From positions 1 through 64,000 of the forward strand of contig JAFRTM010000022.1 in assembly GCA_017439185.1 (NCBI GenBank): DNA of 64,000 nt, given 5' to 3'. Made by a program: the position numbers and the translations under genes. How positions within the stretch are numbered: position 1 is the first letter of the stretch; each line of letters opens with the position of its first letter. Shown piece by piece: positions 3 to 14,261 of the stretch. The notes beneath the pieces are model-generated. The model was given only the letters and a program-made list of their open reading frames with translations, was not told the DNA's origin and made no database searches. The DNA comes from Bacteroidales bacterium. GTDB lineage: Bacteria > Bacteroidota > Bacteroidia > Bacteroidales > P3.

Positions 3-1583
3 AAAAGCCTCACAGCGCGGCTGATGGACGAGAACACCGGAGTGCCGACCAATGTCAACTATGCCTACGGCTACACCTACAACAATGCCAAGCCCCACAC
101 TGTGAGGGAGGTACGGGACAGCTACAGCAATGATATGCACCTGCTGGAATGGGACGCCAACGGAAATCTGCAGTACTATTACTTCAAGAGTCCCGAGATG
201 GAACGGTGGCACTGCTGGGACGAGGACAACCGCCTGCAGGCGACCAGCGATAACCACAACACGGCATTTTATCAGTATGGTGCCGACGGCAACCGCGCTT
301 TGAAGCTCAGCGGCGAAAGTCAGCAGATGAGCAACAACGGCAACTACCACTACTTCGCGCAACTCAACCAGGTCACACTCTACCCGTCGCCGCATATAGT
401 AGTGGACGGACATGGCTATACCAAGCACTATTATGCCGACAATGAGCGGATATGCAGCCGGATAGGCGGAGGCGGCATTGAAGGGCTGTACTTGCCCACC
501 GACTCGGTGACAGCCAGGATGTTGAAGTATAAGCCGGCAGAAAACGCCATGCAAGCCGCACAGGCAGGCCAGTGTGCCATGGCAAGTGTCAGTGTGCCGT
601 CAAACACCTTGGGAATAATGGCCGACATGCAGACTGTGCAATCTGCCGAAAATGACATCTATTTTGTCCACAGCGACCACCTCGGCAGTGCCAGCTGGGT
701 GACCAACCTCAGCGGTCAGCCGATACAGCACCTGCAGTACCTGCCTTACGGAGAGAGCTATATAGACCAAAGGAGTAGTACCTTCCATGAGAGATACACC
801 TTTACGGGCAAAGAAAAAGACTCAGAATCAGGCTATTACTACTTCGGTGCGAGGTACTTTATGCCAAACTTGAGTATCTGGAACTCGGTGGATCCGATGG
901 CTGACAAGTACCCCAGTTTAAGCCCGTACAACTACTGCGCCTGGAATCCGATGAAGTTGGTTGATCCTAATGGAGAAGAAATAGTCATTAAGGATGGGAA
1001 TAATACATACTACTACAAGAATGGCTCTGTTTATTTAAAGCATGGAAGAGTTCCCGTGGATAGAATGTTAGGGAAGGAGGCCAGCATAATAAAGAACAAC
1101 CTTGACAAAATGTTGAAGCATACATCTGGAAAGAAAGTGATTAAGCGGTTAACGATGAGTAAACAGCTGTACACTATTGCAGCAGATGGGAAAACTGGAG
1201 AAGGAAACTATAGTGCCAGAAGAAATAAAGTAACTTTGGTCGGAGGTGAATCGAATACATTAGAAGCTCTGTCACATGAAATTTTTCATGCATATCAAGA
1301 CGATTACGGAAGAAAACCAAGAACTGTTTATAACGAGGTTGAGGCCTATGTCTTTAGCAGCATGATATCCAATAAACTGGCTGCTGGCATCAAGAGTACG
1401 AATAATAGCGAATACAATACTCATGGATTGAATTTGATAAAGGGGTTTAATAGTGAAAGTTTTAACTACCTAGTTAGTCATTTCCGGAGGGATTCTTCCG
1501 CTAATTTTAAGGGTACTTATAACGGATATGGTTATAACCCAGGCAGCTATACTCTTGGTCAAAGTTTATTAAAAGACTTATAA
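3..1583 (+). CDS. RHS-repeat protein with C-terminal zincin-like metallopeptidase tip (5' end lies outside the window)
   Basis: The frame is open to the left edge, so the first ATG at 24 is internal and the gene begins before the window. The N-terminal part carries YD/RHS repeats. At about 650-965 comes the RHS core, with YFVHSDHLGSASWVT, LPYGE, FTGKEKDSESGYYYFGARYF and the closing NPMKLVDPNGEE. In this family the core marks the end of the shell, and the tip that follows is a variable toxin. The tip (about 970-1583) contains HEIFHAYQ (HExxH at 1275-1289) and a downstream NEVEAY that could supply the third, glutamate zinc ligand, so a zincin-type peptidase is likely. Its target is unknown. The tip is clearly richer in A+T than the core, as expected for an exchanged toxin module. 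A lipoprotein gene starts 4 bases after the stop and is probably the immunity gene. Confidence 0.85.
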   Translation, partial: KSLTARLMDENTGVPTNVNYAYGYTYNNAKPHTVREVRDSYSNDMHLLEWDANGNLQYYYFKSPEMERWHCWDEDNRLQATSDNHNTAFYQYGADGNRALKLSGESQQMSNNGNYHYFAQLNQVTLYPSPHIVVDGHGYTKHYYADNERICSRIGGGGIEGLYLPTDSVTARMLKYKPAENAMQAAQAGQCAMASVSVPSNTLGIMADMQTVQSAENDIYFVHSDHLGSASWVTNLSGQPIQHLQYLPYGESYIDQRSSTFHERYTFTGKEKDSESGYYYFGARYFMPNLSIWNSVDPMADKYPSLSPYNYCAWNPMKLVDPNGEEIVIKDGNNTYYYKNGSVYLKHGRVPVDRMLGKEASIIKNNLDKMLKHTSGKKVIKRLTMSKQLYTIAADGKTGEGNYSARRNKVTLVGGESNTLEALSHEIFHAYQDDYGRKPRTVYNEVEAYVFSSMISNKLAAGIKSTNNSEYNTHGLNLIKGFNSESFNYLVSHFRRDSSANFKGTYNGYGYNPGSYTLGQSLLKDL

Positions 1584-3222: not shown

Positions 3223-6117
3223 TCAGTGTTTCAGGTTGGCGTAGAGTATTTCTATCGGGTGGTGGGCTTTTACGCCTGTGCCGTCGAGTATCTGCTGGCG
3301 GCAGGAGGTGCCGGGAGCGGATACCAGTGCTGGCGTGCCTTTGGCGGCCACCGCGCGGCGCACGGTGGGGAAGAGTACCTGCTCGCCTATCGCCAACGAG
3401 GTCTTGTAATGCTCCTTCTCATAGCCGAACGACCCCGCCATACCGCAGCAGCCACTGGGGATGCGGTGGACCACGGCCCCTGGGAGCAGGGAGAACATCT
3501 CCACCGTCTTCTCGACGCCTACGAGCGCTTTCTGGTGACAGTGGCCATGGAGCCAAATCTCCAGCGGGCGGTCGCTGAAATCACGGGCGGTGATGTTGCC
3601 TTTCGCCACCTCGCGCACCAGGAACTCGTCGTAGAGCAGGGCGTTGGCCGCAAGCCTCCGGGCGTCGGAACGCATAGAGGGAGGGACGAGGTCGGGGTAC
3701 TCGTCGCGGAACGAGAGGATGCAGGAGGGCTCTATGCCGACGAGCGGGGTCTCGGAGGAGACGAGGTCTTTGAGCAGTTCCACGTTTCGCACGGCGAAGC
3801 GCCTGGCCAGCTTGAGGCAGCCTTTGGATATGGCGGCGCGGCCGCTCTCCACATGGCGAGGGATTTCGACCTGATAGCCCAGCCTGGTCAGCAGGCGGGC
3901 GAAAGTCAAGCCGATCTCCGCCTCCTGATAGTTGGTGAACTCGTCGGCGAAGAGATAGACCTTGCCTTTGCTCGGCTTGGCGCCACGGCACTGGCGGGAG
4001 ACGAGCTGGCGCATGGTGTAGCGGCTGAGCGACGGGATGGAGCGCTTGGACGAGAAGCGCACGATTCCCTTTATCACCGACGACGACAGGCTCCACGACG
4101 CCATCAGGTTATAGAGCGGGCGGACCAGGTGGCCCAGCCTTTCCACGTAAGCCATGCGCGCCACCATCCACGACCGCAGCGGAGTGCCGTGGCGGTCGTA
4201 GATTTGCTGGAGGAGCTCGCTGCGAATCTTTGTCATATCGACGTTGGACGGGCATTCGCCCCGGCACCCTTTGCAGGCCAGGCAGCTGTCGAGCATGGCC
4301 TTGACCTCCTGCGAGGAGAGGGTGCGCCCTTCGATGCCGTTGGTGAGCACCTCGCGCAATATGTTGGCCCTGGCCCGGGTGGAGAAGAGCTCGTCGTGAG
4401 TGACCTTGTAGGCGGGGCAGAGGACGCCGCCCATTGCCGACGACTTGCGGCAGTCGCCCGCCCCGTTGCACTGCTCGATAGAGCACATCAGGGCATGGCA
4501 CTGGGAGCTTACGCCGCTGGCCCCTTCCACCTGGCACTCGTCGAAGGCGGCACGCCAGTTGTAATAGGTCTTGAGGAGCTGCTGTCCGGCTTTGTAGGGC
4601 TGGTTCGCGGCAAAGCGCAGCGAGGTGTCCATAGGCGGGGTATCGACAATCTTGCCGCGGTTGAACACCCCGTCGGGGTCCCAGCAGGATTTAAGCTGGC
4701 GCATGAGCTGGTAGCACTCTTCGCCATAGACCAGCGGTATGAACTCGCCGCGCAGCCGGCCGTCGCCATGTTCGCCGCTGAGGCTGCCGTGGTGTTTCTT
4801 GACCAGGAGGGCGGTCTCGTAGGCCACCTGGCGGAAGAGGTCGCGGTCGTGGGGGGTCTTGATGTTCAGTATCGGGCGCAGGTGGAGCTCGCCGGTGCCG
4901 ATATGGCCATAATAGACACAGCGGAGGCCGAGACGGTCGAGCATAGAGCGGAAATCGGCCATATAAGCCGGCAGGCGGTCGGGGGAGACGGCGGTGTCCT
5001 CGATAACGCCAATAGGCTTGGCGTCGCCCTTCATGCCGCTGAGCACGCCGAGACCAGCCTTGCGCAGCGCCCAGACACGCTGTATGTCGTCGCCATAGAC
5101 GCGGGTGTTGCAGTAGGCGAGGCCGCTCTGGGTGACCTCGTGCTCGAAGGCCGAAGCCTGGAGTTCCATGTCGTCGCCGTTGAACTCGGCGATGATGATG
5201 GCGGCGGGATTGCCGTTGACGAAGAAGCGGTTGCGGTCCTGCGCCCTGTTGTTGCGGCAGAGGTCGAGGATCTGTCCGTCCATCAGCTCCACCGCCACGG
5301 GGTGGTGCCGCAGGGCTGCGAGATTGGCCAAGAAACTGTCTTCGAGAGAGTTGCAGTGGGCACAGACCACCATAGTATTGTTTGGCGGCAGCGGGTCGAG
5401 CGACAGCGTCAGCTCGGTGACGAAGGCGAGAGTGCCCTCCGAGCCTGCCAGAAGCTTACATATATCTATGCCTTGTTCAATAGCCTCGTCGATGGCGTAG
5501 CCGCAGCTGCGACGGCGAAGGCTGCGGTCGGGGTAGTTGTCGGTAATCTGCCGGCATATCTTTTCGTCGGACTGCCAAGTTTCCAGCTGGTCATAGATGC
5601 GATGCCAGAGGTCGCTGCCATTGCGGTCGGAGGTGTCGAACTCCGAGCCGTCGGAGAGGACCCCTTTCACCGATATCACGTGATGGCGTGTGCTGCCGTA
5701 GATGAGCGAATGCGAGCCGCACGAGTTGTTGCCGAACATGCCGCCGATGCAGCAGCGGTTGCTCGTAGAGGTCTCGGGGCTGAAGAAGAGGCCGTAGGGC
5801 TTCAGCGCGAGGTTCAGCTCGTCACGCACCACGCCAGGCTGGAGCCTCACCCAACGCTCTTGGGCGTTGATTTCAAGTATCTTGGTGAAGTGTTTGCTGA
5901 TATCCACTACGATGCCGCTGCCCACCACCTGACCCGCTATAGAAGTGCCTGCGGCACGCGGGATGAGGCAAGTGTCCAGCTGCCGGGCTTTGGCAATCAA
6001 GGCTTTGATGTCCTTCACCGACTCGGGATAGGCCACGCCGAGAGGTAGCTCACGGTAGGCGCTGGCGTCGGTGGCGTAGGCTATACGATGACTATTGTCT
6101 GTGAGGATCTGCACCAT
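3223..6117 (-). CDS. FAD-linked and 4Fe-4S-containing D-2-hydroxyacid dehydrogenase (YdiJ/Dld2-like)
   Basis: This 964-residue protein fuses a GlcD-type FAD-binding dehydrogenase (about residues 1-480; PRAAGTSIAGQVVGSGIVVD, GGMFGNNSCGSHS, SGEHGDGRLRGEF) to an iron-sulfur and CCG-type C-terminal half. CLACKGCRGECP (near residue 612) is a 4Fe-4S ligand set, an earlier Cys cluster is near 540, and GCCGMAGSFG (near 890) is the cysteine-rich redox motif. Such proteins oxidise D-lactate, glycolate or D-2-hydroxyglutarate and pass electrons to the membrane quinone pool. It begins 4 bases after the preceding glycosyltransferase gene and closes the ligase/WbpB/WbpE operon. The WbpB/WbpE reaction pair makes D-2-hydroxyglutarate, so that substrate is favoured here by context. 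The substrate is inference; the enzyme class is secure. Confidence 0.88.
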   Translation of the reverse strand: MVQILTDNSHRIAYATDASAYRELPLGVAYPESVKDIKALIAKARQLDTCLIPRAAGTSIAGQVVGSGIVVDISKHFTKILEINAQERWVRLQPGVVRDELNLALKPYGLFFSPETSTSNRCCIGGMFGNNSCGSHSLIYGSTRHHVISVKGVLSDGSEFDTSDRNGSDLWHRIYDQLETWQSDEKICRQITDNYPDRSLRRRSCGYAIDEAIEQGIDICKLLAGSEGTLAFVTELTLSLDPLPPNNTMVVCAHCNSLEDSFLANLAALRHHPVAVELMDGQILDLCRNNRAQDRNRFFVNGNPAAIIIAEFNGDDMELQASAFEHEVTQSGLAYCNTRVYGDDIQRVWALRKAGLGVLSGMKGDAKPIGVIEDTAVSPDRLPAYMADFRSMLDRLGLRCVYYGHIGTGELHLRPILNIKTPHDRDLFRQVAYETALLVKKHHGSLSGEHGDGRLRGEFIPLVYGEECYQLMRQLKSCWDPDGVFNRGKIVDTPPMDTSLRFAANQPYKAGQQLLKTYYNWRAAFDECQVEGASGVSSQCHALMCSIEQCNGAGDCRKSSAMGGVLCPAYKVTHDELFSTRARANILREVLTNGIEGRTLSSQEVKAMLDSCLACKGCRGECPSNVDMTKIRSELLQQIYDRHGTPLRSWMVARMAYVERLGHLVRPLYNLMASWSLSSSVIKGIVRFSSKRSIPSLSRYTMRQLVSRQCRGAKPSKGKVYLFADEFTNYQEAEIGLTFARLLTRLGYQVEIPRHVESGRAAISKGCLKLARRFAVRNVELLKDLVSSETPLVGIEPSCILSFRDEYPDLVPPSMRSDARRLAANALLYDEFLVREVAKGNITARDFSDRPLEIWLHGHCHQKALVGVEKTVEMFSLLPGAVVHRIPSGCCGMAGSFGYEKEHYKTSLAIGEQVLFPTVRRAVAAKGTPALVSAPGTSCRQQILDGTGVKAHHPIEILYANLKH

Positions 6118-6121
6118 AGAA

Positions 6122-7348
6122 TCAAGAGGTTATAGCTTTTATGAAGCGAGCGGCGAGAGTGGAGTATTCCAGGTTGGCCACCGCGTAGTCGTAGCCCCTT
6201 CGCCCCATCGTGGACCTCTCCTCGACGCCCATCTGCGAGAGCTGGCGGATGGCACGGGTCACCTTCTCAACATTCTCGGCCTCGACCTGGATGCCGCAGC
6301 CGCAGCGTTCCACCACGCTCTCCGGCTCGTCGACCGACATCACTATCGGCTTCGAGGAGAGCATATAGTCCGTCATCTTGTTGAACGACGTGCCGTAACG
6401 GTGGAGTTCCGAGTGGACGCCACCCATATAGCATATATCGAAATTCTCTATCACCTTTGGAATCAGCTGCTTGTCGACCGCAGGGAGGAAATAGACGTTG
6501 GCCAGCTCCTTGGCGTGCGAGAGCTTTATGAGGTCCTCTTTCTGTGTGCCTTGGCCGACGAGGACGAAGGCAAGGCGCTTGTTCCCCCGCAGCTGGTCGG
6601 CCGCCTCGATGAACACATGCATGGCCGTAGAAGCCGTGTGGCCGCCCACGTAGCCGACCACCATACGGCCCTCCTTCTTTATCTGCTGGAACAGCGCGCT
6701 ATGCTCGGAAGGCAGTGCCAGTTTCTCCACATCGCGCCATTCCTCGGCCAGATAGCCGTTGGGGACACAGGCGAAGCGCTTGCTGTCGAGCCCGTGGCGC
6801 TGCATGTGAGGGAACGCCTTGTCCAGCATCGAGACCACCTTGTCGCAATGCCTGTAGGCGTAGTTCTCGGCCTGCTGCAGGAGCCATATAAAAGGATGAT
6901 ATTTGGAATAGCCGCCTATCAACATCGGCGAGAGCGGCCACAGGTCGTGCACCTCATAGACGAGCTTCGCGTTATATTGCCGGGCTATTTTCCTTGCAGG
7001 GTAGATGTCAAATGGGTAAGTGGAGGAGGCGATGACCGCGTCGGGTACAAATCCGCCGAGATAGGACTTACTGTTCATCCACAGCTTGGCGACAAACTGC
7101 AACATCGACAGAACTCTCTTCAGTCCGTTGCCTTTATATTCCAGGGTCTTGATCCAGTGATAGAGGACACCGTCGAGGTTTTCGCTTCCGGATCGTTCCG
7201 GCTGCCGCTTGCGCAAGTGGGAGAAGGTGCCGCCGAGGATGAGCACCTTGTGGCCCGCCTTGACCCATTCCCGCGACATATAGTAAGGGCGGAACTCCAT
7301 CCCATACTTAGGAGCGCCGGCGTAATGATTAATGAGCAGTATGTTCAT
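6122..7348 (-). CDS. GT4-family glycosyltransferase
   Basis: This 408-residue GT-B fold protein has a WbuB-like layout. The N-terminal acceptor half starts MNILLINHYAGAPKYGMEFR and contains LVYEVHDLWPLSPM; the C-terminal nucleotide-sugar half contains GYVGGHTASTAMHVFIEAAD and the late acidic motif VDEPESVVE. There are no membrane segments, so it should act at the inner face of the cytoplasmic membrane, adding a sugar to the lipid-linked repeat unit. The gaps to the genes on either side are 4-5 bases, which indicates one transcript with the second glycosyltransferase and the WbpE-like aminotransferase. The sugar it transfers cannot be read from sequence; a di-amino uronic acid or a fucosamine-type sugar would fit the company it keeps. 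Confidence 0.85.
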   Translation of the reverse strand: MNILLINHYAGAPKYGMEFRPYYMSREWVKAGHKVLILGGTFSHLRKRQPERSGSENLDGVLYHWIKTLEYKGNGLKRVLSMLQFVAKLWMNSKSYLGGFVPDAVIASSTYPFDIYPARKIARQYNAKLVYEVHDLWPLSPMLIGGYSKYHPFIWLLQQAENYAYRHCDKVVSMLDKAFPHMQRHGLDSKRFACVPNGYLAEEWRDVEKLALPSEHSALFQQIKKEGRMVVGYVGGHTASTAMHVFIEAADQLRGNKRLAFVLVGQGTQKEDLIKLSHAKELANVYFLPAVDKQLIPKVIENFDICYMGGVHSELHRYGTSFNKMTDYMLSSKPIVMSVDEPESVVERCGCGIQVEAENVEKVTRAIRQLSQMGVEERSTMGRRGYDYAVANLEYSTLAARFIKAITS

Positions 7349-7353
7349 AACAA

Positions 7354-8463
7354 TTAGTTAATGGCCTTTTCGACGACCGAAGAGTATATATCAAACAGTA
7401 TCTTCTCTTGGGTTGACCAAGAATAGTATTTCTCAACAGCCTGTCGGCCATTGTCTCCCTTTTGCCGTGCTATTTCCTTGTTTTCCATAAAGAAGTTTAT
7501 TGCCTTGGCGATGGCGTTGACGTCATGGGGATCTATGCACACGCCACAATCGTTACCTTCGATAATTTCCTTCCAGATATCAAAATCAGTCGCTATCACG
7601 GGAATGCCCGCTTGCATATACTCAAATATCTTCAACACGCCAAGAGATCCTTTTCTGTATCCGACATTAGGCAAATAGTCAAGCAACGCCAGGCCGGCCG
7701 TAGATGCCTGTATATAGGAGGCGCACTCAGAATGGGGCAATACCCCGTCGTAAGAAACCTTATCCCAGTTGGGCAAGGCTTTCAACGTGTCCATGTAACT
7801 TATCGGATCGCACAGACCTGCCACACGGTATTTTACATTCAGTCCCGTCAGTGCATTGATAATGTTTTCATGCATGTATTTCGCACTGACGCCACCAGTA
7901 AAACAAATGCTGTCCTCCCATTTGCGATTGTCCTGTGTTGTGGCTATTACGGGGAAATTGGTCACCTGGAAGGTTTTGCTGTTTATTTTCCGGAGTCTGT
8001 CGACAATAACAGGGGTTACGCTGATGATCGCATCGAATCTTTTCAGCGCATAGGCCTCGTAGCATGCATAAAGTCTGGAGAAAATCTTTGCTATAGGTCT
8101 TGGCAGCCATTCTTTTGTGAGTAGCTGTTGCGGCACGTCTTCGTGGGAGTCGAATATCACGATCTTGCCTTTTCTCTTGAGCCTCAACCCTACAGGCAAA
8201 AGTTCGGGATCATGGAGATGATAGCTAACAGCATCGATGGAAAGCGCCTTCTTCAATATTTCCCGCTGATGGAAGAGTCTTTTAATACGGCCTTTCGGTA
8301 TCTTGAGACCCGCCATGTTGACTCCGTTCTTGACAGTGTCCTCCACATTGGGCGCAATAAGCCACACTTCATATTTTTTTGCCAAAGAGCAGCACTCTTT
8401 GTGGAAGATCCTGACATCATACGGCGGATGGACAGAGGTTATATGGCAGACTCTTATCGGCAT
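7354..8463 (-). CDS. GT4-family glycosyltransferase
   Basis: This 369-residue glycosyltransferase has an N-terminal half with ITSVHPPYDVRIFHKEC, YHLHDPELLPVGL and IFDSHEDVPQ. The C-terminal half has VSAKYMHENIINAL, GSLGVLKIFEYMQAGIPVIA and the sugar-nucleotide loop region before the stop. The family transfers sugars from UDP or GDP donors to lipid-linked oligosaccharides in the cytoplasm. Its first codons overlap the end of the upstream aminotransferase gene by 10 bases, a strong sign of translational coupling. The gene is noticeably richer in A+T than the aminotransferase before it, as is common for glycosyltransferases exchanged between surface-polysaccharide loci. Its position beside WbpB/WbpE homologues suggests it handles the amino sugar they make. 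Confidence 0.83.
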   Translation of the reverse strand: MPIRVCHITSVHPPYDVRIFHKECCSLAKKYEVWLIAPNVEDTVKNGVNMAGLKIPKGRIKRLFHQREILKKALSIDAVSYHLHDPELLPVGLRLKRKGKIVIFDSHEDVPQQLLTKEWLPRPIAKIFSRLYACYEAYALKRFDAIISVTPVIVDRLRKINSKTFQVTNFPVIATTQDNRKWEDSICFTGGVSAKYMHENIINALTGLNVKYRVAGLCDPISYMDTLKALPNWDKVSYDGVLPHSECASYIQASTAGLALLDYLPNVGYRKGSLGVLKIFEYMQAGIPVIATDFDIWKEIIEGNDCGVCIDPHDVNAIAKAINFFMENKEIARQKGDNGRQAVEKYYSWSTQEKILFDIYSSVVEKAIN

Positions 8464-9602
8464 TCTTTGATGTACTGTTGTAGTTTTTCAATTATGTAAT
8501 CCTGCGTCTCTTTCGTCAGCTCCGTGTGCATCGGCAGCGAGAGCACCCTGTCGGCGCATTCCTTCGCGTTGGCCAGTTCGCTGCCCTTTCTCACTATCGG
8601 CTTGAAGGCCTCCTGCTCCTGCAGCGGCAACGGGTAATATATCATGCTCGGTATCCCCTGCTCCGAAAGATATTTCTTCAGGTCGTCGCGCCTGCCCTCG
8701 TTGACCAGCAACGTGTATTGATGGTAGACGTGCATACTAAAATTCTTCTCCACCGGTGTCGCGAACAGCCTTTCTTCGGGGTCGATCTGTCTGATAGCCT
8801 GGGTGTAGTACTTTGCCGCGTTATGACGCGCTACACAGTATTCGTCGAGGTGGCGCAGCTTGACGTCAAGGATTGCCGCCTGGATAGTGTCGAGACGGCT
8901 GTTGCACCCGATCACCGAGTGGTAATACTTCACCTTCTGACCGTGGTTGGCAATCATCCTCAGCTTGCCGGCGAGTTCCTGGTCGCTGGTGAATATAGCT
9001 CCTCCGTCGCCGTAGCAGCCCAGGTTCTTGGAAGGGAAGAACGAGGTGCAGCCGATGGTGCCTATCGTGCCGGTCTTCGCTACCTTGCCGTCCCTGAAAC
9101 GGTAACTGCCACCCAGCGACTGGGCGTTGTCCTCTATCACATACAGGCCGTATTGCCGCGCGATTTCCATTATCGGCTCCATGTCGCTGCTCTGTCCGAA
9201 GAGGTGCACCGGTATGATGGCTTTGGTCTTAGGGGTTATGGCCTCGCGCAAGGCGTCGAGCGAGATATTGAAGGTGCGGTAATCCACGTCCACCATCACC
9301 GGCGTGAGCTGCAGCAGCCCTATCACCTCGGCCGAAGCCACGTAGGTGAAAGCCGGCACGATCACCTCGTCGCCGGGCTTCAGCCCCAGCGCCATCAGCG
9401 CTATCTGCAGCGCGTCGGTGCCGTTGGCACACGGTATCACCTCGCTTCCGCCGAGATATTGGCTCAGGTGCTCGCCGAAATTCTTGACCGCCGGTCCGTT
9501 GATGAACTGGCAACTGTCTATCACCTCGCGGATTCCCTGGTCGATCTCGTCCTTTATCTTAAGATACTGACCGTGGAGGTCAACCATCTGTATCTTGTCC
9601 AT
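8454..9602 (-). CDS. DegT/DnrJ/EryC1/StrS aminotransferase, WbpE/WlbC type
   Basis: This 382-residue PLP-dependent sugar aminotransferase has the family landmarks VIPCANGTDALQIALMALG, EVIVPAFTYVASAEVI, the Asp of VIEDNAQSLG that contacts the cofactor, and the Schiff-base Lys in FFPSKNLGCYGDGG. The opening MDKIQMVDLHGQYLKIKDEI is typical of WbpE/WlbC, which converts UDP-3-keto-GlcNAc-uronate to the 3-amino sugar using glutamate. The WbpB/WlbA-type dehydrogenase that makes the 3-keto substrate is encoded 18 bases upstream, which makes this assignment stronger than family membership alone. The downstream glycosyltransferase gene overlaps its 3' end by 10 bases. The acetyltransferase (WbpD) and the 6-dehydrogenase (WbpA) of the pathway are not in this window. 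Confidence 0.85.
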   Translation of the reverse strand: MDKIQMVDLHGQYLKIKDEIDQGIREVIDSCQFINGPAVKNFGEHLSQYLGGSEVIPCANGTDALQIALMALGLKPGDEVIVPAFTYVASAEVIGLLQLTPVMVDVDYRTFNISLDALREAITPKTKAIIPVHLFGQSSDMEPIMEIARQYGLYVIEDNAQSLGGSYRFRDGKVAKTGTIGTIGCTSFFPSKNLGCYGDGGAIFTSDQELAGKLRMIANHGQKVKYYHSVIGCNSRLDTIQAAILDVKLRHLDEYCVARHNAAKYYTQAIRQIDPEERLFATPVEKNFSMHVYHQYTLLVNEGRRDDLKKYLSEQGIPSMIYYPLPLQEQEAFKPIVRKGSELANAKECADRVLSLPMHTELTKETQDYIIEKLQQYIKECR

Positions 9603-9620
9603 TATGTGTGTTTTTGTTCG

Positions 9621-10601
9621 TTAGTATTTCATGTCGTCCCATCCGAAGGGATGCTGCGAGAGCGGCAGCTTCGCCAGCGGGTGGTAGTCGCCCTTCAGCC
9701 CTACCGGAGTGGCGTTGCGGATGTCGTGCACGATCTCGATGCAAGGGCGAGCCTCACTGATGCGGAAGCCGCGTCCGGCTAGTATCTCCTCGTAGCTCTT
9801 GGTGTGGAGCTCGGTGAAGCCCTGGCTGAACTCAAACTCCTCGCCGTCGATATTCAGCGTGCGGTAGGTGCGTTTCTCGCCCTCCACGGCGTTCGGGGGC
9901 AGACAGTCGGCGTTGATGCTCAGGAAGTAGCGCACCCGGGCCTGTTTCAGCCTCAGGAATCCCGCCACCCGGTCGAAGCTCATCACATGGACGATGTTCT
10001 CCTCCACCGGTCCGAAGATCCATTGCAGCATGTCGTAGAAATGGACACCGATGTTGGTGGCCACGCCGCCGCTCTTGTGCACGTCGCCTTTCCACGAGGT
10101 GTAGTACCAGTTGCCGCGCGAGGTGATGTAGGTGAGGTCGATATCATAGACCTTGTCCTTCGGACCTTCCTCCACCTTCTTCTTCAGTGCGGCGATGCGG
10201 TCGTGGAGCCGCAGCTGCAGTATGTTGTAGGCCTTGTGGCCCGTCTCCTGCTCCACCTTCTCGAGAGCGTCGATGTTCCAAGGGTTCAGCACCACAGGCT
10301 TCTCGCATATCACGTCGGCGCCGAGACGGAGGCCGTAGCGAATAAAGGCGTCGTGGGTGTAGTTGGGCGTGCACACCGAGAGCCAATCGATGTTCCTCTC
10401 GGTCCCTTTCACCTTGTTGCAGAAGCGGTCGAAGAGTTCCTGCTCCACGAAAAAGGAGCACTGCGGGAACGAGCTGTCGAGGCGTCCCACGCTGTCAAAC
10501 TTGTCGTAGGCAGCCACCAGATTGTTGCCGGTGTCGGCGATGGCTTTCAGATGGCGCGGTGCTATGTATCCTGCTGCACCTATCAATGCGAAGTTCTTCA
10601 T
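9621..10601 (-). CDS. Gfo/Idh/MocA dehydrogenase, WbpB/WlbA type (UDP-GlcNAc-uronate 3-dehydrogenase)
   Basis: This 326-residue protein opens MKNFALIGAAGYIAPRHLKA, an unusually diagnostic start shared with WbpB and WlbA, where it forms the NAD-binding loop. CEKPVVLNPWNI is the family EKP motif, and GGVATNIGVHFYDML is the sugar-binding helix with the catalytic His and Asp. WbpB oxidises C3 of UDP-GlcNAc-uronate. It holds its NADH and recycles it by reducing 2-oxoglutarate to D-2-hydroxyglutarate, working as a pair with WbpE, which regenerates 2-oxoglutarate from glutamate. The WbpE homologue follows after 18 bases and the O-antigen ligase precedes it by 10, all on one strand. Length and motifs are complete. 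The exact sugar product is inferred from this pairing. Confidence 0.87.
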   Translation of the reverse strand: MKNFALIGAAGYIAPRHLKAIADTGNNLVAAYDKFDSVGRLDSSFPQCSFFVEQELFDRFCNKVKGTERNIDWLSVCTPNYTHDAFIRYGLRLGADVICEKPVVLNPWNIDALEKVEQETGHKAYNILQLRLHDRIAALKKKVEEGPKDKVYDIDLTYITSRGNWYYTSWKGDVHKSGGVATNIGVHFYDMLQWIFGPVEENIVHVMSFDRVAGFLRLKQARVRYFLSINADCLPPNAVEGEKRTYRTLNIDGEEFEFSQGFTELHTKSYEEILAGRGFRISEARPCIEIVHDIRNATPVGLKGDYHPLAKLPLSQHPFGWDDMKY

Positions 10602-10611
10602 TGTATGATAT

Positions 10612-11922
10612 TTATGTGTTTTCTATTGTTTCGTTGTTTGTCGTTTTCCAGTTGCTTCCTGCCATAAGGCTGAAGAAGAAGCAGAAGAAGGTGATGCCCA
10701 TCTGGCGCTCGAATATCGACTCGAAGAGCGCCGAGAGGACCACGATTAGGAGGAAGGTGAGGAAGAGGTAGTTGCGGGAGCGCAGGCAGCCGATGGTAGG
10801 GCTCACAAAGACGGTGAGTAGTATCAGCAGGCCCGGTATGCCCGTCGCCAGAAGTGTGTCGAGAAACTGGTTGTGCGGGTTGTAACGATGGCTCAACAAC
10901 TTCTCGGCTCCCATCGCTTCGTACTTTTGCGTCAGCACGTCGATGCGGTCGCCGGCACCAACGCCGAACGGCATATTTTCTTTGATTGTATTGACGGCCA
11001 CGCTTGTTATTGCATAGCGGTCGTCGCTGTAGTTGTGGGAGAGGGCGTTCTCCACCGTCGAGAGGAGGCGGTTGTGCGAGTTGGGAATCAGCAGCAGGGT
11101 GGCCCCAATGCTGCCAAGCAGCAAGACTATCATCAACGAGCCCACAAGATAGCGTTTATATCTTGCTATCAGCACTATGGCGAAGCCGAGGAACATTATC
11201 ACGAAGCCGAGGATGCCCGCCCGCGACTGCACCAGGAACAAGTCGGCGACCAGTGCCAGGAGGTAGGAGGCAAAGAGGAGGCAAGTTGTAAGTTTTAAGT
11301 TGTAAGTTTTAAGTTGTAAGTTTTTCGCTGTGGATAGACGTTGCTTTGATTTCAGGTTGAGCAGGCGGTAGGCGATATACGCCAAGGCGAGCAATATGTA
11401 CATCGAGAGGTAGCTGTGGTGCATGGGGTCGAAGCGCACGCCCGTAAAAGCATGAACGTCAACAGCCCCTGAAGAAAAATTCTTGATAAGGACTATCGCT
11501 CGCCACAGGAATCTTATAACCACAGCCGTGGCCATAACCTGCAGCAGGCCGAACAGATGGTTGCGCTTGTGCCATTTCCAGTCGAAGAGGCACATAAGCA
11601 GCGGGAAAGCGGCGAAGAGCAGTATCTTGTTCACCTCGGCCTTGCCTTCGGCCATGTTCTCGGTATAGAGCAGGCTGAGGGCGTATACCGCTGGCAGCAA
11701 GGCCATTGCGGCAAATCCTATCTTGGACCAGAGGGTCAGGTTGCCGTTGCCCACCTTGCGCTCTTTGACGGCGATCACTATGGCCCACAGCAACACCGCC
11801 AATAGCACGTAATAGGCTATGTGCCAGGAAAATGGCAGCACACCGGCGACAACGAGCAAGAGCGCATATTCCACCCTGTGCCATGCGTCGAGTGGGGCGA
11901 AGAGGTTGCGTGCATTACTCAT
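10612..11922 (-). CDS. O-antigen ligase / Wzy-type membrane protein
   Basis: This is a polytopic membrane protein of about 436 residues. The signature HNQFLDTLLATGIPGL and the preceding SRAGILGFVIMF are typical of the O-antigen ligase (WaaL/Wzy_C) family, which joins polymerised O-antigen to lipid A-core, or polymerises repeat units, at the periplasmic face. I chose the ATG at 11922 (MSNARNLFAPL); an in-frame ATG at 11961 would add 13 residues reaching into a leader hairpin. Between two membrane segments the gene contains three 14-bp tandem repeats (11283-11324), read as KNLQLKTYNLKLTT. It is the first gene of a six-gene operon. As a separate Wzy-like gene lies at 15.8-17.1 kb, ligase is the likelier role. 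Confidence 0.75.
   Translation of the reverse strand: MSNARNLFAPLDAWHRVEYALLLVVAGVLPFSWHIAYYVLLAVLLWAIVIAVKERKVGNGNLTLWSKIGFAAMALLPAVYALSLLYTENMAEGKAEVNKILLFAAFPLLMCLFDWKWHKRNHLFGLLQVMATAVVIRFLWRAIVLIKNFSSGAVDVHAFTGVRFDPMHHSYLSMYILLALAYIAYRLLNLKSKQRLSTAKNLQLKTYNLKLTTCLLFASYLLALVADLFLVQSRAGILGFVIMFLGFAIVLIARYKRYLVGSLMIVLLLGSIGATLLLIPNSHNRLLSTVENALSHNYSDDRYAITSVAVNTIKENMPFGVGAGDRIDVLTQKYEAMGAEKLLSHRYNPHNQFLDTLLATGIPGLLILLTVFVSPTIGCLRSRNYLFLTFLLIVVLSALFESIFERQMGITFFCFFFSLMAGSNWKTTNNETIENT
11283..11324. repeat. three tandem 14-bp repeats inside the O-antigen ligase gene
   Basis: The unit AAGTTGTAAGTTTT occurs three times without interruption. Three copies total 42 bases and keep the frame; gain or loss of one copy would shift it. 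The repeat falls in a loop between predicted membrane helices. Confidence 0.85.
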
Positions 11923-11939
11923 TGTCAGACTTTTATATT

Positions 11940-11993
11940 TTACAGGGAAGATGCTGGCCAAGCCATAGGCTTGGGGACTTGTCCCCTATTCAT
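11940..11993 (-). promoter_or_regulatory. structured leader of the ligase operon, with a 17-codon open frame
   Basis: Between the -7 box and the ligase start lie two perfect adjacent hairpins, GGGGAC-AA-GTCCCC (11973-11986) and AAGCC-TAT-GGCTT (11960-11972), as read on the minus strand. The first ATG after the promoter (11993) opens a 17-residue frame (MNRGQVPKPMAWPASSL) that ends at 11940. Whether it is translated is unknown. The layout could allow leader-dependent control of the operon. Confidence 0.45.
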
Positions 11994-11998
11994 AACTG

Positions 11999-12006
11999 CA
12001 AAATTA
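11999..12006 (-). promoter_or_regulatory. -7 promoter element TAATTTTG for the ligase-to-dehydrogenase operon
   Basis: TAATTTTG followed by CA on the minus strand fits the TAnnTTTG consensus. No clear TTTG stands at -33. It is the only good match upstream of the six-gene leftward operon (11.9 to 3.2 kb). Confidence 0.5.
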
Positions 12007-12293
12007 CAGAAAATAGTTTAATTATAACTTATTTTGTGATTTTTTCTGTTCCGCCGTTGCGCTATCGTACTTGGATACAGCTACATACGCCACCGCTCGC
12101 TTTCTCTGGCATGATTGATTTATACGTACATTTTGCTGCCATTTTTTAGAAATCGTCACTTTTTATATAATTATTCTTAGATAAGACATTGTCGGCAATA
12201 TCTGTCGGCCCGACCCTTTCATACAATACCGGGCAACTTTGGAGAAACACAACTCATAGATTATCAAAACGTTGTCATCCAAATATAAAAAAA

Positions 12294-12327
12294 TTTGTTG
12301 CGAAATAGAAAAATTGTCGTATCTTTG
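12294..12327 (+). promoter_or_regulatory. promoter (-33 TTTGTTG, -7 TATCTTTG) of the rightward aminotransferase/transferase pair
   Basis: TTTGTTG (12294-12300) stands 19 bases before TATCTTTG (12320-12327), the standard Bacteroidota arrangement. The transcript would carry an 80-90 base leader with a perfect GACAGA/TCTGTC stem (12348-12353 with 12362-12367). The rest of the divergent region (12007-12293) is A+T-rich and I see no gene in it. Confidence 0.65.
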
Positions 12328-12417
12328 CACTTGAAAAATGGTCGCCCGACAGATTATGGGTTCTGTCTGTCAGGTGAGCAGAAGGCATAACCAGGACCCG
12401 CCCGTAACCGCTTACCC

Positions 12418-13677
12418 ATGAAGGTACCGTTTTCCCCTCCTGATATGACCGACCGGGAGATCCAAGAGGTGAGAGAGACCATCCTCTCGGGCTGGATCAC
12501 CACCGGGCCGCGTACCAAGAAACTCGAACAGCAGATCTCCGACTACGTCCATACCGACAAGACGGTATGCCTCAATTCCGCCACCGCCTCGATGGAAATG
12601 GTGCTGCACCTCCTGGGTGTCGGCGAAGGCGACGAGGTGATCGTCCCGGCCTATACCTATACGGCCACCGCCAGCGTGGTCTGCCACGTAGGGGCCAGGC
12701 TGGTCATGGTCGATTCCCAGAAAGACAGCGTGGAGATGGACTACGACCAACTGGAGGCGGCCATCACCGAGCGGACCAAGGTGATCGTGCCGGTGGACCT
12801 CTGCGGCATCGTGGCCGACTATGGGCGGGTGTATGAGATTGTCGAGAAGAAGAAAGCCCTGTTCCGTCCGTCCAACGCCCTGCAGGCCAAGATCGGACGT
12901 GTAGTGGTCTCGGCCGACTGCGCCCACTCCTTCGGCGCCATGCGCGACGGGAAGATGGCAGGGGAAATCGCCGACTTCAGCTCGTTCAGCTTCCATGCTG
13001 TGAAGAACTTCACCACCGCCGAAGGCGGCGCCATGACGTGGCGTCTGTCGTTCGGAGGCGAGACGGTTCCTTCCGATGTGGACTATATGCCACTGGTGGC
13101 GAAGAAAGAGGGCGAGACCTGGAACGAGCTGCTTTACCGCATCGCGCAGCTTTTCTCCCTCCACGGGCAGAACAAGGACGCCCTGGCCAAGACCAAACTC
13201 GGCACCTGGGAATACGACATCATAGGACCTTGGTACAAGTGCAACATGACCGACATCATGGCCGCCTTGGGACTGGCTCAGATGGAGCGCTACCCCGACC
13301 TGCTGAAACGCCGGTACGAGATCGTGGAACGATACAACTCCGCACTGAAAGGCCTGCCCGTGGCAGTCCTCGACCATAAGGGGCCTAACCACTGCTCCTC
13401 CCATCACCTCTACCTGGTTCGCCTGCTGGGCAAGACCCGCGAAGAGGCCAACCGCGTCATCGAGCAGATGGCCGAACGCGACATCGCCACCAACGTGCAC
13501 TACAAGCCGCTTCCACTGATGACAGCCTACAAAGCCCTGGGCTTCGACATCAAAGACTACCCCAACGCCTACCGCCTCTATGAGAACGAGGTGACCCTGC
13601 CGCTCCACACCTGCCTCTCCGACGAAGCGGTCGATTACGTAATCTCCAACTTTGTAGATATCGTCAAGCATCTGTGA
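12418..13677 (+). CDS. DegT/DnrJ/EryC1/StrS aminotransferase (PglE/PseC-like)
   Basis: This 419-residue PLP-dependent nucleotide-sugar aminotransferase contains ILSGWITTGPRTKKLEQQI, LNSATASMEMVLHLLGVGEG, EVIVPAYTYTATASV, the cofactor Asp in VSADCAHSFGA, and the Schiff-base Lys in FSFHAVKNFTTAEGG. The GWITTGP and HAVKNFTTAEGG patterns group it with enzymes that aminate C4 of UDP-4-keto-6-deoxy sugars, so a 4-amino-4,6-dideoxy sugar (bacillosamine-type) is a reasonable product, though the partner dehydratase and acetyltransferase are not in the window. It overlaps the initiating transferase gene by 4 bases, so the sugar it makes may be the first one loaded onto undecaprenyl phosphate. Codon choice is strongly C/G-ending. 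Confidence 0.82.
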   Translation: MKVPFSPPDMTDREIQEVRETILSGWITTGPRTKKLEQQISDYVHTDKTVCLNSATASMEMVLHLLGVGEGDEVIVPAYTYTATASVVCHVGARLVMVDSQKDSVEMDYDQLEAAITERTKVIVPVDLCGIVADYGRVYEIVEKKKALFRPSNALQAKIGRVVVSADCAHSFGAMRDGKMAGEIADFSSFSFHAVKNFTTAEGGAMTWRLSFGGETVPSDVDYMPLVAKKEGETWNELLYRIAQLFSLHGQNKDALAKTKLGTWEYDIIGPWYKCNMTDIMAALGLAQMERYPDLLKRRYEIVERYNSALKGLPVAVLDHKGPNHCSSHHLYLVRLLGKTREEANRVIEQMAERDIATNVHYKPLPLMTAYKALGFDIKDYPNAYRLYENEVTLPLHTCLSDEAVDYVISNFVDIVKHL

Positions 13678-14261
13678 AACGGCTGTTCGACATAGTGGCC
13701 AGCGGACTGGGACTCATCTTCCTGAGCCCCCTCTTCCTAGTCCTCGCCGTCTGGATCAAGCTCGACTCCCCCGGCCCCGTCTTCTACCGCCAGGTGCGCG
13801 TAGGCCGACACAATAGGGATTTCCGCATCTTCAAGTTCCGCTCCATGCGTGTCGGGGCCGACAAAGGCAGTCTGGTCACAATTGGCGGGCACGACCCTCG
13901 CATCACGCGCTCCGGCTACTTCATCCGCAAGTTCAAACTCGACGAGTTCCCCCAGCTGATCAACGTGTTCCGCGGCGAGATGAGCCTCGTGGGGCCACGA
14001 CCCGAAGTGCGGCATTACGTCGATTACTGGACTCCCGAGCAGATGCACGTCCTCGACGTGCGGCCAGGCATCACCGACCCCGCCTCCATCAAGTACCGCA
14101 ACGAGAACGAGCTGATGGAGAAAGCTGAAGACCCCGAACGGTACTATATCGAAGTCATCATGCAGGAAAAGATCAAGCTGTATCTCGAATACGTCAACCA
14201 CCACACCTTCTGGGGCGACATCGGCCTGATATTCCAAACCCTGTGGAGCATTGTGAAATAG
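13674..14261 (+). CDS. initiating sugar-phosphate transferase (PglC/WcaJ-type phosphoglycosyl transferase)
   Basis: This 195-residue protein is the short, PglC-like form of the monotopic phosphoglycosyl transferases. Residues 1-30 form the re-entrant membrane helix (LFDIVASGLGLIFLSPLFLV). Then come SPGPVFYRQVRVG, FRIFKFRSMRVGADKG, the catalytic region RKFKLDEFPQLINVFRGEMS (Asp-Glu dyad) and LVGPRPE, followed by DVRPGITDPASIKYR. It moves a sugar phosphate from a UDP-sugar to undecaprenyl phosphate and so starts each repeat unit. The start is GTG at 13674, overlapping the aminotransferase stop codon (GTGA), which implies translational coupling and a shared amino-sugar substrate. Confidence 0.9.
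   Translation: MKRLFDIVASGLGLIFLSPLFLVLAVWIKLDSPGPVFYRQVRVGRHNRDFRIFKFRSMRVGADKGSLVTIGGHDPRITRSGYFIRKFKLDEFPQLINVFRGEMSLVGPRPEVRHYVDYWTPEQMHVLDVRPGITDPASIKYRNENELMEKAEDPERYYIEVIMQEKIKLYLEYVNHHTFWGDIGLIFQTLWSIVK

Follow-up and report, generated by a model that had tools for sequence, protein, structure and literature searches.

A YdiJ-like dehydrogenase gene shares an operon with wbpB in Bacteroidales and probably encodes a D-2-hydroxyglutarate recycling enzyme

Central metabolism is usually regarded as forming D-2-hydroxyglutarate only on the side. A 64,000-nt stretch of DNA from a Bacteroidales bacterium (P3) (GCA_017439185.1, contig JAFRTM010000022.1, positions 1–64,000; hereafter the window), whose source genome is 92% complete, raises the question of whether a polysaccharide operon can carry its own enzyme for removing this compound. 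The operon is a tight, uninterrupted run of six genes on the minus strand, reading from 11961 to 3223 and encoding a Wzy_C protein, WbpB, WbpE, two glycosyltransferases and, last, a protein with flavin adenine dinucleotide (FAD) and Fe-S domains (Table 1). This terminal FAD/Fe-S protein is probably a dedicated D-2-hydroxyglutarate dehydrogenase (D2HGDH) that clears the by-product of WbpB in its own operon, a reading drawn from sequence comparison.

The six genes are separated, from 5′ to 3′, by gaps of 10 and 18 bp, a 10-bp overlap and distances of 5 and 4 bp, as derived from open reading frame (ORF) coordinates. The window WbpB is a close sequence match to the characterised WbpB/WlbA UDP-N-acetylglucosaminuronic acid (UDP-GlcNAcA) 3-dehydrogenases: its best structures are the WbpB entries 3oa2, which we take to be the Pseudomonas aeruginosa protein, and 3o9z (E 2e-85), whereas the next Gfo/Idh/MocA structure, 3q2k, reaches only 1.6e-11. 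In P. aeruginosa, WbpB produces D-2-hydroxyglutarate, using 2-oxoglutarate as oxidant, and is inhibited by this product (PMC8651671). By homology, the window enzyme would oxidize UDP-GlcNAcA at C3 and pass the hydride via bound NAD to 2-oxoglutarate, giving D-2-hydroxyglutarate. WbpE-type aminotransferases use glutamate as donor with 2-oxoglutarate as product, and the WbpE encoded here is predicted to aminate the 3-keto sugar in this way. The YdiJ-like protein would then return D-2-hydroxyglutarate to 2-oxoglutarate on its FAD, the electrons passing out through the 4Fe-4S clusters and the GlpC-like half; the latter makes a quinone a plausible acceptor. The outcome would be that 2-oxoglutarate stays available and that build-up of an inhibitor of P. 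aeruginosa WbpB is prevented; the operon would take part in the synthesis of a UDP-2,3-diamino sugar acid, destined for a surface polysaccharide, and encode its own clean-up enzyme.

The association between wbpB and the gene of the FAD/Fe-S protein (the FAD gene) was examined in 190 genomes of the family, 76 of which carry the FAD gene and 153 WbpB. With split matches of one gene merged and five FAD fragments dropped (one in G181, one in G182 and three in G178), 77 FAD loci were counted. At 47 of them WbpB is encoded no more than 8 kb away and in the same orientation, where chance would be expected to give about 1% in genomes of ~2.3 Mb (our own arithmetic); for G124 and G182 a WbpB match is present in the genome table, its position not being recorded in the linkage table. 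The two genes are also associated by presence, with 74 genomes holding both, 2 the FAD gene only, 79 WbpB only and 35 neither (Fisher p 4e-7, uncorrected for kinship, with 17 WbpB-negative genomes assigned by elimination). WbpB is thus found in 74 of the 76 FAD genomes vs 79 of the 114 FAD-less genomes, and the only FAD genomes without it, G013 and G139, are 76% and 73% complete. The corresponding association was not observed for SerC, present in 68/76 and 103/114 genomes, respectively (68 both, 8 FAD only, 103 SerC only, 11 neither; p 1); SerC matches were taken at E 0.001, weak ones included, and the curated cut-off is passed by 38 of the 190. Since presence is associated with WbpB but not with SerC, the FAD gene follows WbpB and not serine synthesis in this family. 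A PF02913 search of the same genomes returned 76 places in 75 genomes, every one within the FAD loci when compared by eye, and the FAD protein is therefore the sole PF02913 enzyme found in the family; the FAD genome not recovered by this search, G111, holds a fragment only.

Gene orders were compared in 80 named wbpB loci, the best of 480 confirmed stretches as chosen by WbpB match, whose titles refer mostly to Bacteroidales or a Bacteroidales family, many from rumen or faeces, and in one case to Fibrobacter. At least 44 of the 80 contain the FAD gene, a lower bound as several of the 36 FAD-less loci stop near wbpB (e.g. L092, 757 bp downstream). It is always on the wbpB strand, 37 times downstream and 7 times upstream, its place being behind wbpE or else immediately behind or ahead of wbpB. 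The compact loci, in which gene-cluster identities come from one scanned member per cluster, include the orders wbpA–2 bp–wbpB–12 bp–wbpE–2 bp–FAD gene (L070), wbpB–70 bp–wbpE with the FAD gene overlapping wbpE by 4 bp (L058), wbpA–35 bp–wbpB–18 bp–FAD gene (L114), wbpA–wbpB–wbpE–wbpI–12 bp–FAD gene (L113) and a FAD gene overlapping wbpB by 1 bp (L124). In two genera (g6 and g7) a single gene separates the FAD gene from that of WbpB, and no WbpE was found in the stretches examined. A tree of the FAD proteins requires a minimum of 5 order changes among linked rows and 6 changes of linkage itself; it is a quick tree without bootstrap, and label shuffles show clustering only, which kinship alone would give. 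WbpB is the constant partner of the FAD gene while the neighbouring genes vary. As a separate observation, the gene intervening between wbpB and the FAD gene is FemAB-like in L041 (7541–8458) and gives a weak FemAB match in L044, and a gene occupies the same place in L040, L042 and L050.

The initial annotation of the window had placed WbpB, WbpE and a terminal FAD/Fe-S protein at 3223..10601, and these coordinates and gene calls are correct by Pfam, PDB and ORF evidence. It had suggested counting how often wbpB–wbpE homologues accompany the enzyme elsewhere; the genes co-occur and stay linked in many genomes, in several gene orders. Its central proposal, dedicated D-2-hydroxyglutarate recycling within a wbpB–wbpE operon, is consequently upheld with regard to linkage, the substrate itself being a prediction.

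Table 1. The six-gene run of the window, listed in order of transcription
Feature	Coordinates	Strand	Evidence
Wzy_C / O-antigen ligase-polymerase-like protein, first gene	10612..11961	-	PF04932 5.4e-19; 10 bp ahead of wbpB
WbpB-type UDP-GlcNAcA 3-dehydrogenase (Gfo/Idh/MocA), predicted D-2-hydroxyglutarate source	9621..10601	-	PDB 3oa2 WbpB, E 2e-112
WbpE-type DegT aminotransferase	8454..9602	-	PDB 3nu7 WbpE, E 9e-96; PF01041 5.7e-111
Glycosyltransferase, group 1 (GTb)	7354..8463	-	PF00534 4.8e-13
Glycosyltransferase, group 4/1 (GTa)	6122..7348	-	PF13692 2.5e-12
YdiJ-like FAD/Fe-S dehydrogenase, 964 aa, last gene, predicted D-2-hydroxyglutarate dehydrogenase	3223..6117	-	PF01565, PF02913, Fer4; NF049975 588 bits

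The FAD protein matches PF01565 (FAD_binding_4), PF02913 (FAD-oxidase_C) and two 4Fe-4S models, all above cut-off. It shares the architecture of YdiJ, in which FAD_binding_4 and FAD-oxidase_C are fused to a 4Fe-4S and GlpC-like CCG half in the same order, and a single end-to-end collinear alignment relates it to Escherichia coli YdiJ at 31% identity. Its cysteine motifs at 540–556 and 612–623 fit two 4Fe-4S clusters, and the CCG motif is found at 890–892. For the E. coli and Pantoea YdiJ enzymes, D-2-hydroxyglutarate is reported as the sole substrate among the acids tried, with no activity on D-malate, D-lactate and nine others, and loss of ydiJ leads to accumulation of D-2-hydroxyglutarate (PMC9504171). 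The AlphaFold model of the window protein (pLDDT, the predicted local distance difference test, 88.7; 30 sequences) has the expected fold. Three side observations concern such genes. In L119 (6041–9679) the frame, upstream of wbpB, is 1212 aa and longer than its relatives; in L035 (genome G053) two overlapping ORFs, 9897–11552 for the FAD half and 11549–12874 for the Fe-S half, take its place as if encoding two subunits, where an assembly frameshift is possible; and ydiJ of E. coli MG1655 (L132 3223–6686) overlaps the menaquinone synthesis gene menI by 4 bp, a hint of a quinone link for YdiJ itself.

The active site was compared in an alignment of 102 rows (the window protein and relatives, identical rows removed) plus E. 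coli YdiJ. R352, H405, H412, E449 and H450, corresponding to Arg386, His434, His441, Glu475 and His476 of human D2HGDH, are invariant throughout the 102 rows, as they are in E. coli YdiJ. The window protein thus carries the residues common to the FAD/Zn 2-hydroxyacid dehydrogenases (human D2HGDH, D-lactate dehydrogenase (D-LDH) and GlcD), the roles of which in the metal and hydroxyacid sites have been described (PMC7801405). In the human enzyme Asn443 binds the far carboxylate, whereas GlcD and the majority of D-LDHs place a hydrophobic residue there (PMC7801405). The window protein lacks this hydrophobic mark, exemplified by Leu in E. coli GlcD, and has Arg414. In all, 99 of the 102 rows share this Arg with E. 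coli YdiJ, and the other 3 carry Thr; the D-LDH comparison was made without the fused Shewanella and Helicobacter D-lactate dehydrogenases. The human-type C5-carboxylate set (Lys401, Tyr432 and Asn443) is incomplete as well: Tyr432 is matched by Tyr403 (Tyr in 81 of the 102 rows, His in 21), and the position of Lys401 is taken by a hydrophobic residue, Lys/Arg367 being close by, with the register set by eye. An arginine in place of Asn443 would be apt for binding a second carboxylate.

A number of observations weigh against a dedicated D-2-hydroxyglutarate dehydrogenase. The best NCBIfam model of the FAD protein is YdiJ (NF049975), and because its score lies below the equivalog cut-off of 1350 bits, which a Shinella plasmid protein exceeds at 1435 bits, the protein is YdiJ-like and no proven YdiJ. 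The Arg at the Asn443 site, initially read as a mark of D-2-hydroxyglutarate use, is also found in a haloarchaeal relative on a Halomontanus plasmid, near an alanine-glyoxylate aminotransferase; since that relative stands in a different context, the reading is weakened and the residue is no proof of substrate. In Foldseek, with good coverage for residues 1–494 only, D-lactate dehydrogenases rank above human D2HGDH (rank 16; rank 26 in another run), and as the fold is common to both it does not decide between D-2-hydroxyglutarate and D-lactate. Glycolate is absent from the acid panel reported for YdiJ (PMC9504171). The source genome also encodes three PF02826 D-2-hydroxyacid dehydrogenases, one of them with PGDH as its best model, below cut-off, and with these proteins another source of D-2-hydroxyglutarate is possible. 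The FAD gene is missing from 79 of the 153 family WbpB genomes and from locus L098, which has a similar wbpA–wbpB–DegT–epimerase order; as about half of the family WbpB genomes manage without it, the enzyme is helpful in some lineages and not required everywhere. Finally, in a phylum sample of 148 genomes, 65 with the FAD gene and 38 with WbpB, the two occur together in 27. Apart from that of the window, none of these (26 genomes) has the two genes near each other, some being drafts with the genes on different contigs. The distribution of the FAD enzyme is therefore wider than its WbpB-linked use. A WbpB match at E 1e-40 is lacking in 38 of the 65 FAD genomes; these 65 include G193 and G309, whose matches cover the FAD half only, and some matches at 30% identity that are possibly other enzymes.

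These points bear on three other explanations. A general D-2-hydroxyglutarate dehydrogenase clearing the by-product of a SerA-type enzyme, and located in the operon for another reason, would accord with the discussion of YdiJ as SerA partner in E. coli and Pantoea (PMC9504171) and with the phylum sample, where linkage is seen in the window genome only and so many FAD genomes lack WbpB. It is nevertheless unlikely, given that presence within the family tracks WbpB and not SerC, that the FAD gene is missing from 103 of the 171 genomes matched by SerC (38 genomes score above its curated cut-off) and that the wbpB linkage survives changes of gene order. The source genome itself, at 92% completeness, gave no SerC match, against 11 positives among 14 control genomes.

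A dehydrogenase for D-lactate, glycolate or another short 2-hydroxyacid is brought to mind by the nearest solved structures, which both by sequence and by fold are mostly D-lactate dehydrogenases, and by related fused plasmid proteins encoded beside glyoxylate-type genes (Halomontanus and Mycobacterium dioxanotrophicus). We hold this to be quite improbable, as Arg, both here and in YdiJ, occupies the Asn443 site, for which GlcD and the majority of D-LDHs use a hydrophobic side chain (PMC7801405), and the six genes of the run gave no match to transporter or partner families for lactate or glycolate. The enzyme could instead oxidize a sugar intermediate or the polysaccharide itself, in keeping with its location among sugar genes and with the action of FAD proteins of the wider fold on sugars (DprE1 is among the Foldseek rows). 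Such an activity is made very improbable by the presence of every 2-hydroxyacid and metal-site residue, by the full-length collinearity with YdiJ and by the constancy of wbpB while surrounding and intervening genes vary.

The pairing of wbpB with a dehydrogenase was also sought in a plasmid set, in which seven records have WbpB at E 1e-40. The pRadio1 plasmid of Deinococcus radiophilus (NZ_CP086381.1, L169 7272–14659) encodes, on one strand, glcF, a GlcD-like protein, a FAD-binding gene, two others, wbpB, an acyltransferase and DegT, and is the sole plasmid of the seven with a GlcDEF-type set within 5 kb of wbpB. At the position of Asn443 the GlcD-like protein of pRadio1 carries Asn, as against Leu in the E. 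coli GlcD. This set may be an independent version of the link between wbpB and a dehydrogenase, for which a single case is weak evidence. The other six plasmids show no annotated GlcD- or YdiJ-type gene in the stretch shown, the PLSDB tables being incomplete; the wbpB stretch of the Ruegeria plasmid has sarcosine-oxidase-type flavin genes. Separately, on a plasmid of M. dioxanotrophicus (NZ_CP020810.1, L179 3622–7766), a YdiJ-like gene overlaps an annotated hydroxyacid-oxoacid transhydrogenase gene by 4 bp, with glyoxylate genes close by. The hydroxyacid-oxoacid transhydrogenase class yields D-2-hydroxyglutarate. A broader scenario, to which we give somewhat less than an even chance, is that rumen and gut Bacteroidales repeatedly kept or rebuilt wbpB and a YdiJ-type Fe-S dehydrogenase as one module, in which 2-oxoglutarate cycling would pull nucleotide-sugar C3 oxidation forward and the electrons would leave via the Fe-S half, and that a similar solution arose independently in Deinococcus.

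Further steps were looked for in the source genome. WbpA (UDP-GlcNAc 6-dehydrogenase) is encoded outside the window (C19:31720) and is 76% identical to a PF03721-type gene directly before wbpB in L112. A WbpI-type epimerase was not found, as there is no PF02350 match in this 92%-complete genome, and the end sugar of the pathway may keep the gluco form. Likewise, no MenB match was obtained in the genome, while 11 of 14 controls, Bacteroides included, were positive; other menaquinone routes (futalosine) were not searched. The absences of SerC, MenB and PF02350 are each tentative because of the completeness of the genome. The initial annotation had sent the electrons of the cycle to the quinone pool, a step left unsupported since MenB is unmatched. 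It had also held that no operon with such a recycling step was described: searches aimed at one pairing wbpB with a D-2-hydroxyglutarate dehydrogenase showed none in an open-licence library, which omits most subscription papers, but the metabolic coupling itself has been published for P. aeruginosa (PMC8651671).

Around the operon, a divergent pair adjoins it at 12418–14261 on the plus strand, where the gene of a second DegT aminotransferase precedes that of a short sugar-phosphate transferase (PF02397), and the window opens with the C-terminal part of a YD-repeat/Rhs-like protein (24–1583, plus strand; judged from sequence, no Pfam match, open at the window start). Long opposite-strand ORFs (e.g. 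3226–6048) are in our reading shadow frames. A promoter scan gave 9 sites vs a shuffled mean of 6.1 and a terminator scan 4 vs 9.0; neither was used.

The gene organisation suggests that D-2-hydroxyglutarate removal is part of the polysaccharide pathway. If true, the coupling known from P. aeruginosa would reach into anaerobes, the 'FAD-binding and (Fe-S)-binding protein' found in many annotations would gain a function, and YdiJ-type enzymes would have a role beyond serine synthesis. The support of WbpB by D2HGDH is already known from P. aeruginosa PAO1, where deletion of the D2HGDH PA0317 lowers O-antigen (PMC8651671); what is new here is that a YdiJ-type enzyme recurs in the operon.

Among known systems, the A-lipopolysaccharide (A-LPS) of Porphyromonas gingivalis is likewise made by a Wbp route in Bacteroidales that is required for surface polysaccharide, and the abstract and early introduction of its account do not mention a recycling enzyme (PMC4031482). 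The serine coupling of SerA with D2HGDH follows the same logic, 2-oxoglutarate being reduced to D-2-hydroxyglutarate and a dehydrogenase recycling it (PMC9504171), but it belongs to another pathway, and FAD gene presence in the window family does not track serC. E. coli and Pantoea YdiJ resemble the window protein in the FAD half, the GlpC-like Fe-S half, their collinearity and the active-site residues; they differ in that the window protein, at its modest identity to the E. coli enzyme, scores below the NCBIfam cut-off, and that YdiJ is discussed with SerA (PMC9504171). The D2HGDH of P. stutzeri is about half the length of YdiJ (PMC9504171). In function there is a likeness to WbpB and PA0317 of PAO1, in which D-2-hydroxyglutarate is the by-product of WbpB and a flavin dehydrogenase, here a predicted one, removes it (PMC8651671). 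The difference is one of enzyme and gene location, as the window enzyme is YdiJ-like and encoded within the operon. PA0317 is a shorter enzyme without the Fe-S half, and its gene lies away from the wbp cluster.

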